IMG/VR virus record: IMGVR_UViG_3300046463_000548
Location: 89,707 to 153,706 of that record
Source of the DNA: a virus
Direction: 5' to 3' (one strand)
Length of the DNA stretch: 64,000 nt
The notes under the pieces are model-generated. The model had not been told where the DNA came from. It was given only the letters and a program-made list of their open reading frames with translations, and made no database searches. This document shows, piece after piece, positions 37,778 through 41,474 of the stretch. Each line of letters begins with the position of its first letter. Positions within the stretch are counted from its first letter, which is position 1. The position numbers were made by a program, and so were the translations under genes.

Positions 37778-37830
37778 GACAGTGCAGCAAGAAAGGGAAG
37801 CTGACTGGAAGTACGGGATCGACAGACGCA

Positions 37831-37866
37831 AAAAAGGGGAGTCGGATTTTAGTTTCCGCTCCCCTT
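37831..37866 (-). terminator. Terminator of the permuted-tRNA unit
   Basis: Minus strand: AAGGGGAGCGGA pairs with TCCGACTCCCCTT and is followed by TTTT. It lies 145 bases after the tRNA-Glu 5' half and ends the unit that starts at the promoter at 38484. Confidence 0.8.
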
Positions 37867-38010
37867 GCTATTTTCTTTCTTCTGAACACTTCATAGTCAA
37901 ATGTGCAGGAGAAAGAGCGAATGCAGAAATCGTAGCTGAATCTGCATCCGCACTTCGGACGTTAATCCCAATCACATAGAGCAAGTCATCAAGGCTAGTT
38001 ACGATAACAA

Positions 38011-38119
38011 GAAAAGCCGACCCTCTACCGCTGAGGTACTCACCTCCCAAGATCACTTCAGCCGACAAATGATCTAGGGCAGGTGAGACGGGATTCGAAC
38101 CCGCGTCTTTCGACTTGAA
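38011..38119 (-). tRNA. Circularly permuted tRNA-Glu(UUC): 3' half precedes 5' half
   Basis: Read on the minus strand, the 3' half comes first (38119-38080): end of anticodon loop TTCAA, stem GTCGA, variable AAGAC, T arm GCGGG-TTCGAAT-CCCGT, acceptor CTCACCT, discriminator G and CC. A 34-base linker (38079-38046) follows, folding on itself (nine of ten pairs: CCCTAGATCA/TGATCTTGGG). Then the 5' half (38045-38011): acceptor AGGTGAG, TA, D arm CCTC-AGCGGTA-GAGG, G, anticodon stem TCGGC and TTTTC. Joined, the loop is TTTTCAA (anticodon UUC) and all four stems pair, with two G-U pairs. TTC is shared by both ends, so the exact joint cannot be fixed. The gene order is impossible for a normal tRNA. 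Confidence 0.85.
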
Positions 38120-38155
38120 CCAGTGCTCTCATCCATTGGGTGCACTGGCAACCTT
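38120..38155 (-). promoter_or_regulatory. Structured leader of the permuted tRNA-Glu
   Basis: Just before the 3' half, CCAGTGC and GCACTGG (38148-38142 and 38126-38120) form a 7-bp hairpin. AAGGTT (38155-38150) can pair with AGCCTT (37996-37991) after the 5' half, whose trailer has its own small hairpin GTTA-TCG-TAAC. These bring the two anticodon-loop ends together. Confidence 0.5.
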
Positions 38156-38196: not shown

Positions 38197-38477
38197 GGGT
38201 AATACGATCAATGAAAGTTGCCGCTCGCTGCCGCACGTCTACCAATTCCGTCACCTCTGCACCAAACACGCTGCCATACTCAAAACCGGGTTATCGAGAA
38301 CCGGCTCTGATTAGAGCAGACGACCCAAACTTTTCCCAAGAAAAGATCGCTACCGTGGGAATCCACCTCCCGTCGAGAAAGGTGGCACGACTACATACAG
38401 CAGCGTGTTTGGTGCAGAGGGGTGGAGTCGAACCACCACTGAGCTTCTACTATCAACGATAACGATCAACGCTACCC
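38197..38477 (-). tRNA. Circularly permuted Leu-type tRNA gene, anticodon arm unresolved
   Basis: Minus strand: the 3' part (T arm GGTGG-TTCGACT-CCACC at 38437-38421, acceptor CCTCTGC, A, encoded CCA at 38412-38410) comes before the 5' part (acceptor GCAGAGG at 38260-38254, TG, then a Leu-type D arm ACG-GAATTGGTAGA-CGT). The acceptor pairs perfectly, and the helix continues past the CCA: 38254-38274 and 38400-38420 are a perfect 21-bp inverted repeat. The 125-base region between contains several hairpins, such as GCTCT-GATT-AGAGC. The anticodon stem is uncertain; CGGC/GTTG is the best pairing I see. Outer ends share TTGATCGT and can pair GGGTA/TACCC. Confidence 0.65.
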
Positions 38478-38483
38478 ATTCTC

Positions 38484-38490
38484 TATTTAC
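38484..38490 (-). promoter_or_regulatory. Late-type promoter motif, permuted-tRNA unit
   Basis: GTAAATA followed by GAGAATGGGTAG on the minus strand; transcription would begin a few bases before the Leu 3' half. The stop codon of the gene at 38487-38681 (CAG TAA) is inside the motif. Confidence 0.65.
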
Positions 38491-38681
38491 TGCTGACTCT
38501 TGGAATCAAATCTGAACGTGACCTGAATTTCAACAAGCCCAGTCGTCTCGTCAGCTTCCGCGTCCTCCATTGCAGGGGCAATCGGATAACAATCCGTGAA
38601 GGTCATTTGCCTGTCATCTGTCGTTAGCACCGTGAGATTCGGCCCTTCCCACCACAAACGTTTGACGCGGAGTTCGACCAT
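38487..38681 (-). CDS. Small hypothetical protein
   Basis: A 64-residue beta-rich protein starting MVELRVKRLWWEGPNLTVL, two bases after the previous stop. Ends GLVEIQVTFRFDSKSQQ. Function unknown. Confidence 0.6.
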   Translation of the reverse strand: MVELRVKRLWWEGPNLTVLTTDDRQMTFTDCYPIAPAMEDAEADETTGLVEIQVTFRFDSKSQQ

Positions 38682-38683
38682 GA

Positions 38684-39478
38684 TTAAATCTGGTTGCTGG
38701 CTGGCGGATTACGCAGCGGCTCAAGGATCACTGCAATCAGGTCGCGGCCGATGTTCTGCGTCATCACAGGCACCGAGTTCGCGCGGGTCCGAGCCTGCTT
38801 AACAGCCGTGATCAGTTCGTCCAGAGTCGCGATAACCTGCGCCTTCTGGATTGCGGTCGTCGCGCCCGACACGTTTTCCTGCGTGAACGTGCCGATGATC
38901 TTGTCGCTGGTCACTTCCTTGACCTGTGCCGGGTGCTTGTCCGAGTGCGGGTACAGGACCACGGGCACAGTCTGCTTTTCGGTCTTGGTCGTGATCGACG
39001 GATGTGCTGCCTTCCACGTACCGGCTTGTGCCGCGTTGGGGTCGATGCGCCAATCCTTCGATGCGTCGAGCGTCGGGATTTGCATCGCGAGCTTGCGCAG
39101 TTCGCCCAGACGCACTTCGAGACCCATCAACTCATCGACCGGCACATTCTCCGCGAATGTCTGTCCACGGAATTCGATGTTGGCGAGAGCGGTCGTGTTG
39201 GTCAGGTTCTTCGACGCCAGAACGTCTTCGGCCTTCGCCCAGTAGCTCAGGAAGTAGTCCAGAGTCGTGAGCACCGTTGTCGGCAGCGTCTTATCCTGGC
39301 GCGCGGCCTTTTCGAGGTCTTCGTTGTTCGGATCGTCACCGAGCAGCTTCAGGGTCTTCGTGAAGCCCGTGAAGTAGTTGTCACCCTTTTCAAATTTCGT
39401 CAGGGTGTCCTTAGCCATCGCGTCGCGCGAATTTGTTGCCGTCTTTTCAGCGGCCAACAGTTCATGAAGTTGAGCCAT
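38684..39478 (-). CDS. Conserved protein of unknown function (MAQLHELLAAE family)
   Basis: A 264-residue protein from the ATG at 39478 (MAQLHELLAAEKTATNS). The pattern VPVDELMGLEVRLGELRKLA, then IPTLDASKDW and KTEKQTVPVVLYPHSDKHPA with QARTRANSV near the end, matches a family of unnamed bacterial and phage proteins I recall (DUF7873-like). No role is known. It has its own late-type promoter. No good ribosome site is visible; a TTG at 39496 is an alternative start. Confidence 0.7.
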   Translation of the reverse strand: MAQLHELLAAEKTATNSRDAMAKDTLTKFEKGDNYFTGFTKTLKLLGDDPNNEDLEKAARQDKTLPTTVLTTLDYFLSYWAKAEDVLASKNLTNTTALANIEFRGQTFAENVPVDELMGLEVRLGELRKLAMQIPTLDASKDWRIDPNAAQAGTWKAAHPSITTKTEKQTVPVVLYPHSDKHPAQVKEVTSDKIIGTFTQENVSGATTAIQKAQVIATLDELITAVKQARTRANSVPVMTQNIGRDLIAVILEPLRNPPASNQI

Positions 39479-41081: not shown

Positions 41082-41369
41082 TTACGAAACGACGCCCATG
41101 ATTTCAGCTTCTTGGAAAAGCGTCAGTTCTTCACCGTCAACCTCTACCGGGTAACCAGCGTTCGGATCGAAGTGAACGATGTCACCGACCTTCACTATCA
41201 TAGGTACGACGCGGCCGTCAGCCACGAAATGACCGGCACCGACTGCAACGACTTCGCCCTGATCGGGACGCTGCTCGCGGTTGGAAGGGATCACGATGCC
41301 TGAGGCAGTCGTCTGCGGCTTAACAGTGACACGGACCAGCAGGCGAGCATACAGCGGTTGAAACGGCAT
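41082..41369 (-). CDS. GroES-like co-chaperonin
   Basis: A 95-residue protein, MPFQPLYARLLVRVTVKPQT, with ASGIVIPSN as the mobile loop part, GEVVAVGAG, VKVGDIVHFDPNAG and the C-terminal ELTLFQEAEIMGVV, all in the order of GroES. Phage co-chaperonins such as T4 gp31 replace host GroES for folding the capsid protein. AAAGG precedes the ATG at 41369. Confidence 0.85.
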   Translation of the reverse strand: MPFQPLYARLLVRVTVKPQTTASGIVIPSNREQRPDQGEVVAVGAGHFVADGRVVPMIVKVGDIVHFDPNAGYPVEVDGEELTLFQEAEIMGVVS

Positions 41370-41399
41370 TTTGTACCTTTGATTTGAGCAAGAAACTTT

Positions 41400-41474
41400 G
41401 GCTCCATAGCCTGGGCTCGAACCAGGGACCACACGATTAACAGTCGCGTACTCTACCAACTGAGCTACTATGGA
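41400..41474 (-). tRNA. tRNA-Asn(GUU)
   Basis: Acceptor TCCATAG/CTATGGA, anticodon loop CTGTTAA in stem CGCGA/TCGTG, T arm CCTGG-TTCGAGC-CCAGG, G73 and CC. Standard gene. Confidence 0.9.

Follow-up and report, generated by a model that had tools for sequence, protein, structure and literature searches.

A conserved phage locus with circularly permuted tRNA-like modules in a predicted RNA downstream of DUF7873 genes

In YrlA, Rsr binds to the basal stem, and the tRNA-like domain is both a binding site for PNPase and a substrate of DusA and TruB (PMC8394870). The locus described here resembles YrlA and its particles (Rsr/Ro60, TROVE; RYPER) in having a tRNA-like module ordered as T arm, closed acceptor and D arm, a predicted flank helix that encloses this module, an adjoining conserved protein gene, and possible tandem copies. 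It differs in its partner, which is DUF7873 and not TROVE, in its 6-nt UNANNN arrays, and in that the sequence outside the tRNA-like part is not recognised, with a score below the YrlA gathering threshold. The permuted tRNA genes of Cyanidioschyzon, green algae and Thermofilum also place the 3' half before the 5' half with a linker at the acceptor, but they are spliced to working tRNAs in hosts with a tRNA-splicing endonuclease, whereas the anticodon features of the present modules are not conserved; the linkers of such genes in algae and archaea can be as short as 1 nt (PMC3978253). A tRNA-like half lacking an anticodon arm is also found in tmRNA, including its permuted two-piece forms; in the window, however, ARAGORN called no tmRNA, and the Rfam beta_tmRNA model scored 24.4 bits against a gathering score of 84.

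The window, i.e. the whole 64,000-nt stretch that we analysed, belongs to a linear virus contig of 153.7 kb (IMGVR_UViG_3300046463_000548). The terminase of this record is 60% identical to those of BcepSauron and BcepSaruman (262-264 kb), and the contig therefore probably covers only part of a jumbo phage genome.

Two permuted modules beside a DUF7873 gene

A scan of the entire 153.7-kb record for a T arm, a complementary acceptor and a D arm in permuted order returned exactly two modules, both downstream of the DUF7873 gene (Table 1). Module 2 (38011-38119, minus strand) holds a complete tRNA top half in permuted order (T arm, 7-bp acceptor, D arm), and the Leu-like module 1 (~38477-38216, minus; detected at 38437/38260) lies immediately upstream of it. 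Module 2 begins with TTCAA GTCGA AAGAC before its T arm, and G TCGGC TTTTC follows its D arm. That the tRNA 3' half precedes the 5' half, as an earlier note on this DNA had described, is evident from both the sequence and the scan, and its account of the rejoined cloverleaf as standard in every element was also correct: there is formally a 5-bp anticodon stem, U33, an anticodon and a plausible Glu anticodon loop, and ARAGORN reads the rejoined halves as tRNA-Glu(TTC). A continuous 7-bp helix also fits at the would-be splice junction, and its 5' strand, AAGTCGA, is the 3' side of the anticodon stem drawn in that note. In place, module 2 scores 19 bits with the Rfam tRNA model (cut-off 29). R1, a covariance model built from 43 module-2 sequences, gives 75.7 bits here over 38009-38119 and finds modules in relatives too. 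The second module, the inverted-repeat linkers and the adjoining DUF7873 gene had been missed.

In module 1, the T arm spans 38437-38421, and the linker ends prolong the acceptor into a helix of ~21 bp that encloses three hairpins; no anticodon loop is recognisable. No canonical tRNA-Glu or tRNA-Leu was found in the 153.7 kb of the record, and the ARAGORN call 'tRNA-Asp(atc)' at 38410-38493 was rejected as an artefact of the 3' half of module 1. The probable terminator after module 2 is not listed by the consensus scan, probably because its stem is interrupted. In G001, a relative chosen by its terminase, the module 1 homologue (L031:15634-15856) includes, within the 5' part, a complete anticodon arm of Arg(TCT) type, CCAGA-TTTCTAA-TCTGG, and its permutation point lies within the variable loop.

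Table 1. Features of the DUF7873 gene and the predicted RNA, in order along the minus strand (window coordinates).
Feature	Position	Strand	Basis
DUF7873 protein, 264 aa, start MAQLHELL	38684..39478 (ORF open to 39496)	minus	Pfam PF25283, E 5.5e-65
6-nt repeat stretch before module 1, GGGTAGCGTTGATCGTTATCGTTGATAGTAG	38447..38477	minus	lag-6 repetition, UNANNN unit across loci
Module 1 3' part: T arm GGTGG-TTCGACT-CCACC, acceptor 3' strand CCTCTGC, ACCA	38410..38437	minus	permuted-order scan
Module 1 linker	38261..38409	minus	fold z-score -5.5; ends conserved in G001
Module 1 5' part: acceptor 5' strand GCAGAGG, TG, Leu-like D arm ACG-GAATTGGTAGA-CGT	38235..38260	minus	permuted-order scan
7-bp hairpin CCAGTGC...GCACTGG just 5' of module 2	38120..38148	minus	sequence
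Module 2 outer helix 5' strand AAGTCGA and variable loop AAGAC	38105..38119	minus	7-bp helix with 38021-38011; swap test
Module 2 T arm and acceptor 3' strand	38081..38104	minus	covariance model R1, covariation
Module 2 T arm GCGGG-TTCGAAT-CCCGT	38104-38088	minus	
Module 2 acceptor 3' strand CTCACCT	38087-38081	minus	
Module 2 linker, 35 nt, hairpin prolonging the acceptor helix	38046..38080	minus	
Module 2 acceptor 5' strand, TA and D arm	38022..38045	minus	permuted-order scan, R1
Module 2 acceptor 5' strand AGGTGAG, then TA	38045-38039 (acceptor)	minus	
Module 2 D arm CCTC-AGCGGTA-GAGG	38036-38022	minus	
Module 2 outer helix 3' strand TCGGCTT	38011..38021	minus	
Conserved TTGTTATCGTAACTAG 3' of module 2	37995..38010	minus	same block in L044 and G001
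Probable terminator GGGGAGCGGA..TCCGACTCCCC, then TTTTTT	37830..37864	minus	by reading the sequence

Spread, conservation and covariation

A search with the DUF7873 protein of the window retrieved 28 IMG/VR loci, and 80 with a profile. The family occurs in 73 named phage records (Klebsiella, Vibrio, Rhizobium, Pseudanabaena, Arthrobacter, Gordonia and other phages) and in one bacterial chromosome, that of Calothrix brevissima. Conservation was measured over 82 non-redundant DUF7873 loci, whose phages are those of Proteobacteria, Actinobacteria and Cyanobacteria. In 74 of these, the same strand carries a permuted module, or more than one, no further than 1.2 kb downstream, compared with 5 of 82 upstream regions, none of 82 opposite strands, and none of 410 dinucleotide shuffles of the homologous downstream regions. 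Six of the eight loci missed by the scanner have a downstream module that R1 finds, while L142 and L148 gave no clear module downstream of DUF7873 with either method. In the named phages the modules sit in an unannotated gap 3' of DUF7873. Direct DNA searches in phages returned short tRNA-like pieces only, and an IMG/VR search with the pattern TATCGTAACT..TGGGATTAA gave G001 as the sole homologue, the four other matches lying in unrelated contigs in which no tRNA was found. Apart from G001, the relatives selected through their terminase (BcepSauron, BcepSaruman, Motura and others) have neither DUF7873 nor a module above 43 bits, the level reached by pairs of ordinary adjacent tRNAs.

Without being supplied with the pairing, RNAalifold recovered the T, acceptor and D stems, with compensatory double changes in 16 of 16 pairs. 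For the named structure, 268 double-change cells are counted, compared with 92 +/- 8 after shuffling; its covariation score is 0.713, compared with 0.210 when shuffled and at most 0.25 for slid versions. The scanner that chose the loci requires T, acceptor and D stems. How large a percentage is paired therefore depends on this selection, while pair diversity and the shuffle control are unaffected. The outer helix was not used in picking loci, and all five of its pairs form in 59% of cases, against 9% when partners are swapped between loci (maximum 18% in 300 swaps). The invariant alignment columns are U8, A14, G19, T54, U55, C56 and A58 (the T-loop positions being imposed by the scanner), which are the nucleotides that hold the tRNA elbow.

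The locus of the predicted RNA with its permuted tRNA-like modules is conserved, in synteny with DUF7873; the circular permutation of the predicted fold is real and conserved. By conservation and covariation, the modules are predicted to fold like the top half of a tRNA, with T arm, acceptor, D arm and elbow contacts, with a hairpin closing the acceptor and, in module 2, with the RNA flanks pairing into an outer helix where the anticodon arm would be. An origin as chance matches or decayed tRNA debris has negligible probability: tRNA clusters do hold fragments, e.g. the Leu 3' half of BcepSauron (L029:2760-2910), but permuted order, covariation and synteny are conserved across phages of several phyla, which already refutes this explanation. 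In G001, an HNH endonuclease reading frame (L031:15990-16490), flanked by CTCCGCCTCACTGTGTAT/ATACAGTGAGGCGGAG, lies within the module 2 linker, indicating that the acceptor-capping loop tolerates insertion.

tRNA gene or tRNA mimic

The earlier note had read module 2 as a tRNA-Glu gene whose RNA is cut at the acceptor end and joined at the anticodon loop. In such a gene a decoding tRNA would arise once leader and trailer are cut off in the anticodon loop, the new ends are ligated, and RNase P together with 3' processing takes out the linker at the acceptor. The standard rejoined cloverleaf and the algal and archaeal precedents speak for this pathway, as does the NCCA that follows the acceptor in 38 of 68 class-I-like modules and points to an origin from tRNA genes. 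The homologues argue the other way. U33 is present in 40% of 62 homologous modules as opposed to 93% of 233 true tRNAs from these phages, and a sixth 'anticodon' stem pair, by which the stem runs past 5 bp, in 55% as opposed to 18%; no anticodon is kept across the homologous modules, and the acceptor linkers range from 5 to 161 nt, many being 5-9 nt and capping the acceptor directly. Further points against a tRNA gene are the lack of a recognisable anticodon loop in the Leu-like partner module, the lack of a match in the record to RtcB (PF01139), the sole RNA ligase looked for, and the pairing of CCA with its own leader, seen in the window's module 1 and, on visual inspection, in many homologues, a pairing that inhibits bacterial RNase P (PMC9433436). 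The earlier note had also named related phages with a normal tRNA-Glu and decaying halves as a case that would speak against its reading; normal tRNA-Glu genes do accompany the module in L046 and in Rhizobium phage RHph_TM30, which is near to that case, but the halves are not decaying. We regard a permuted tRNA-Glu gene as very improbable; the RNA is probably part of an undescribed phage RNA-protein particle and not a tRNA gene that is spliced together.

A permuted intron-exon arrangement, in which group I/II intron halves flanking the tRNA circularise the exons, was rejected as having almost no likelihood. A group I intron could use GGCTT^..G^TTCAA as its splice junction, but no Rfam intron family matches at the gathering or a relaxed threshold, and the flanks of the homologues are too short, only tens of nt of simple 6-nt repeats with no catalytic core.

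YrlA (RF02553) is the best Rfam match and the sole family found that shares the topology (30.1 bits, E 3e-4); the permuted order is the same, but the match covers model positions 23-85 only and falls below the gathering score of 69. At that score YrlA is not called in any of 15 homologous loci. The window has flank helices, but these match none of the YrlA end positions, which form its stem. TROVE (PF05731) is absent from the 153.7-kb record and from eight relatives, and present in one of 16 DUF7873 records. The exception is RHph_TM30, which has DUF7873 with its own module (72 bits) as well as a TROVE/Rsr gene; the gap upstream of the latter (L161:415-1606) contains at least three further permuted modules matching YrlA (37 and 36 bits; R1 60 bits for the best), together with a repeated motif, GTTGCGA..TACTTCG, and no UNANNN array. 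This cluster is probably an array of phage Y RNAs. The two systems thus look like parallel RNPs, each combining its own partner protein with a permuted tRNA mimic of one shared kind. The locus in the window could itself encode a bona fide Y RNA of the YrlA family, serving a TROVE/Rsr protein of the host or of an unsequenced part of the phage; the Rfam match, the modules beside rsr in RHph_TM30 and the probably fragmentary record favour this, but it is unlikely given the partial match, the rarity of TROVE, the lack of UNANNN arrays in the Rsr-linked gap, and a constant neighbour that is DUF7873. A permuted tRNA mimic is of a known, Y-RNA-like kind, while the partner family DUF7873 is new.

A cis-acting leader or 3' UTR, in which the mimics would bind a synthetase or tRNA enzyme and control DUF7873 or the downstream genes, is quite unlikely. 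The fixed position 3' of DUF7873 and the terminator-like hairpin after the RNA agree with such an element, and tRNA mimicry is known in mRNA leaders. However, the downstream genes vary among phages, the RNA is 3' of the conserved gene, and two modules with binding-site-like repeats exceed the needs of a leader.

UNANNN repeats, DUF7873 and a proposed particle

The downstream regions have a 6-nt periodicity (z 15.3 at lag 6 and 0.5 at lag 3, compared with 8.9 at lag 3 in a coding control), indicating that the repeat stretches are not coding. With the modules masked, an unbiased search of letter pairs selected T-N-A at a fixed phase (110 triple repeats vs 9.3 in shuffles). Triple UNANNN repeats occur in 56 of 73 loci, and arrays of 3-5 units precede the first module and separate the modules, so that, statistically, the predicted single-stranded stretches before and between modules carry this 6-nt repeat. 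The window's own tract ahead of module 1 is akin to UNANNN but imperfect, mixing 6- and 7-nt steps. Such a tract is what regularly spaced protein-binding sites would look like, and DUF7873 may be the protein that binds it. TRAP offers an analogy, as short triplets set at regular intervals along single-stranded RNA point to one site for each protomer; no homology to TRAP is shown, and the unit here is UNA plus 3 nt.

DUF7873 itself has an invariant DKHPAQ (54-sequence alignment), located at the tip of a long beta-hairpin in an AlphaFold2 model with a confident alpha/beta fold (pLDDT 92.9, pTM 0.80). The fold has no match among solved structures at E<=0.001, a PDB sequence profile search gave none, and the protein is not recognisably TROVE. 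Cas7-like top ranks in Foldseek (E>0.03, TM about 0.1) were set aside; A0A7M1RW91, a 179-aa uncultured-phage protein in BFVD, is a weak match (prob 0.99, TM 0.43-0.61, E 0.065). A literature search found no paper naming DUF7873. As there is no solved match, RNA binding by this protein is proposed solely from synteny and the repeats.

It is highly probable that the tRNA-mimic RNA is functionally tied to DUF7873, while for direct binding of DUF7873 to the repeats we consider the chances evenly balanced. The explanation that we find likely overall is a phage non-coding RNA with two tandem permuted tRNA-mimic modules that forms an RNP with DUF7873 and tethers or sequesters a host tRNA factor. This phage RNP would be Y-RNA-like, with DUF7873 taking the role that Rsr has there. 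Modules and repeats would be transcribed as one RNA that is not cut and joined into tRNA-Glu; DUF7873 copies would bind the UNANNN repeats, one per 6 nt, and the resulting RNP would hold out the tRNA mimics, as Rsr and YrlA do, tethering or sequestering a tRNA-binding host factor during infection. The YrlA case suggests PNPase as this factor, and an enzyme that modifies, processes or cleaves tRNA is the other candidate, although any one named target is doubtful. More tentatively, these phage RNPs might be a new class that exists in parallel with Ro60-Y RNA and independently of it. In such particles a DUF7873 oligomer would read 6-nt-spaced UNANNN and the permuted mimics would capture host enzymes that handle or cleave tRNA, as a counter-defence or takeover device.

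The proposed particle would give DUF7873 and an unannotated RNA of jumbo and other phages a function-bearing context. Permuted tRNA mimicry would then reach past Ro60-Y RNA and have a second protein partner, and there would be a 6-nt code of RNA recognition that can be tested. A particle of this kind would also mean that phage 'permuted tRNA genes' can be mimics, and that tRNA finders misread them, as with the tRNA-Asp(atc) call here and, in Klebsiella phage FBKp24, an annotated tRNA-Sup(TTA) across a permuted module (L080:4013-4097), which is probably a false call.

Several other features were noted. From sequence reading, the gene after the RNA looks vWA-domain-like in L058 and L062 and like a MoxR-like AAA ATPase in L053; Ro60 also has a vWA domain. 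On the minus strand of the window, an unpermuted tRNA-like element at 41982-41825, missed by ARAGORN, has the acceptor GGGTCGG/CCGACCT, a Ser/Leu-like D region, a good T arm and ~100 nt replacing the anticodon arm. Another, at ~41028-40872 (minus), has the acceptor CGGAGCA/TGTTCCG with ACCA, a normal D arm and, where the anticodon arm would be, a long arm with structure (ATCCTC..GAGGAT around GCCGGG..CCCGGT). An odd tRNA-like stretch at ~42523-42400 (minus) comprises a D-arm-like CAGG..CCTG, a UUCG hairpin, a GCGAAAGC hairpin and a T arm, and a long hairpin, GTATAGGCGGTGATGATCG...CGATTATCACCGCCTATAC, lies between tRNA-Asp and tRNA-Asn at 41577-41492 (minus). ARAGORN also missed tRNA-like genes in L047 (8439-9118) and L044 (6566-6689) that are ~25-50 nt overlong between the D and T arms. 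The BcepSauron tRNA-Leu 3' half is followed by a ~20-bp inverted repeat, with no 5' half seen, and its counterpart in BcepSaruman (L030:2447-2533) is an intact tRNA-Leu. Finally, a GroES-like (Cpn10) gene lies among the tRNAs of the window (41082-41459, minus), and ParA-like and ParB-like genes stand side by side elsewhere in the record (L002:13025-15336).
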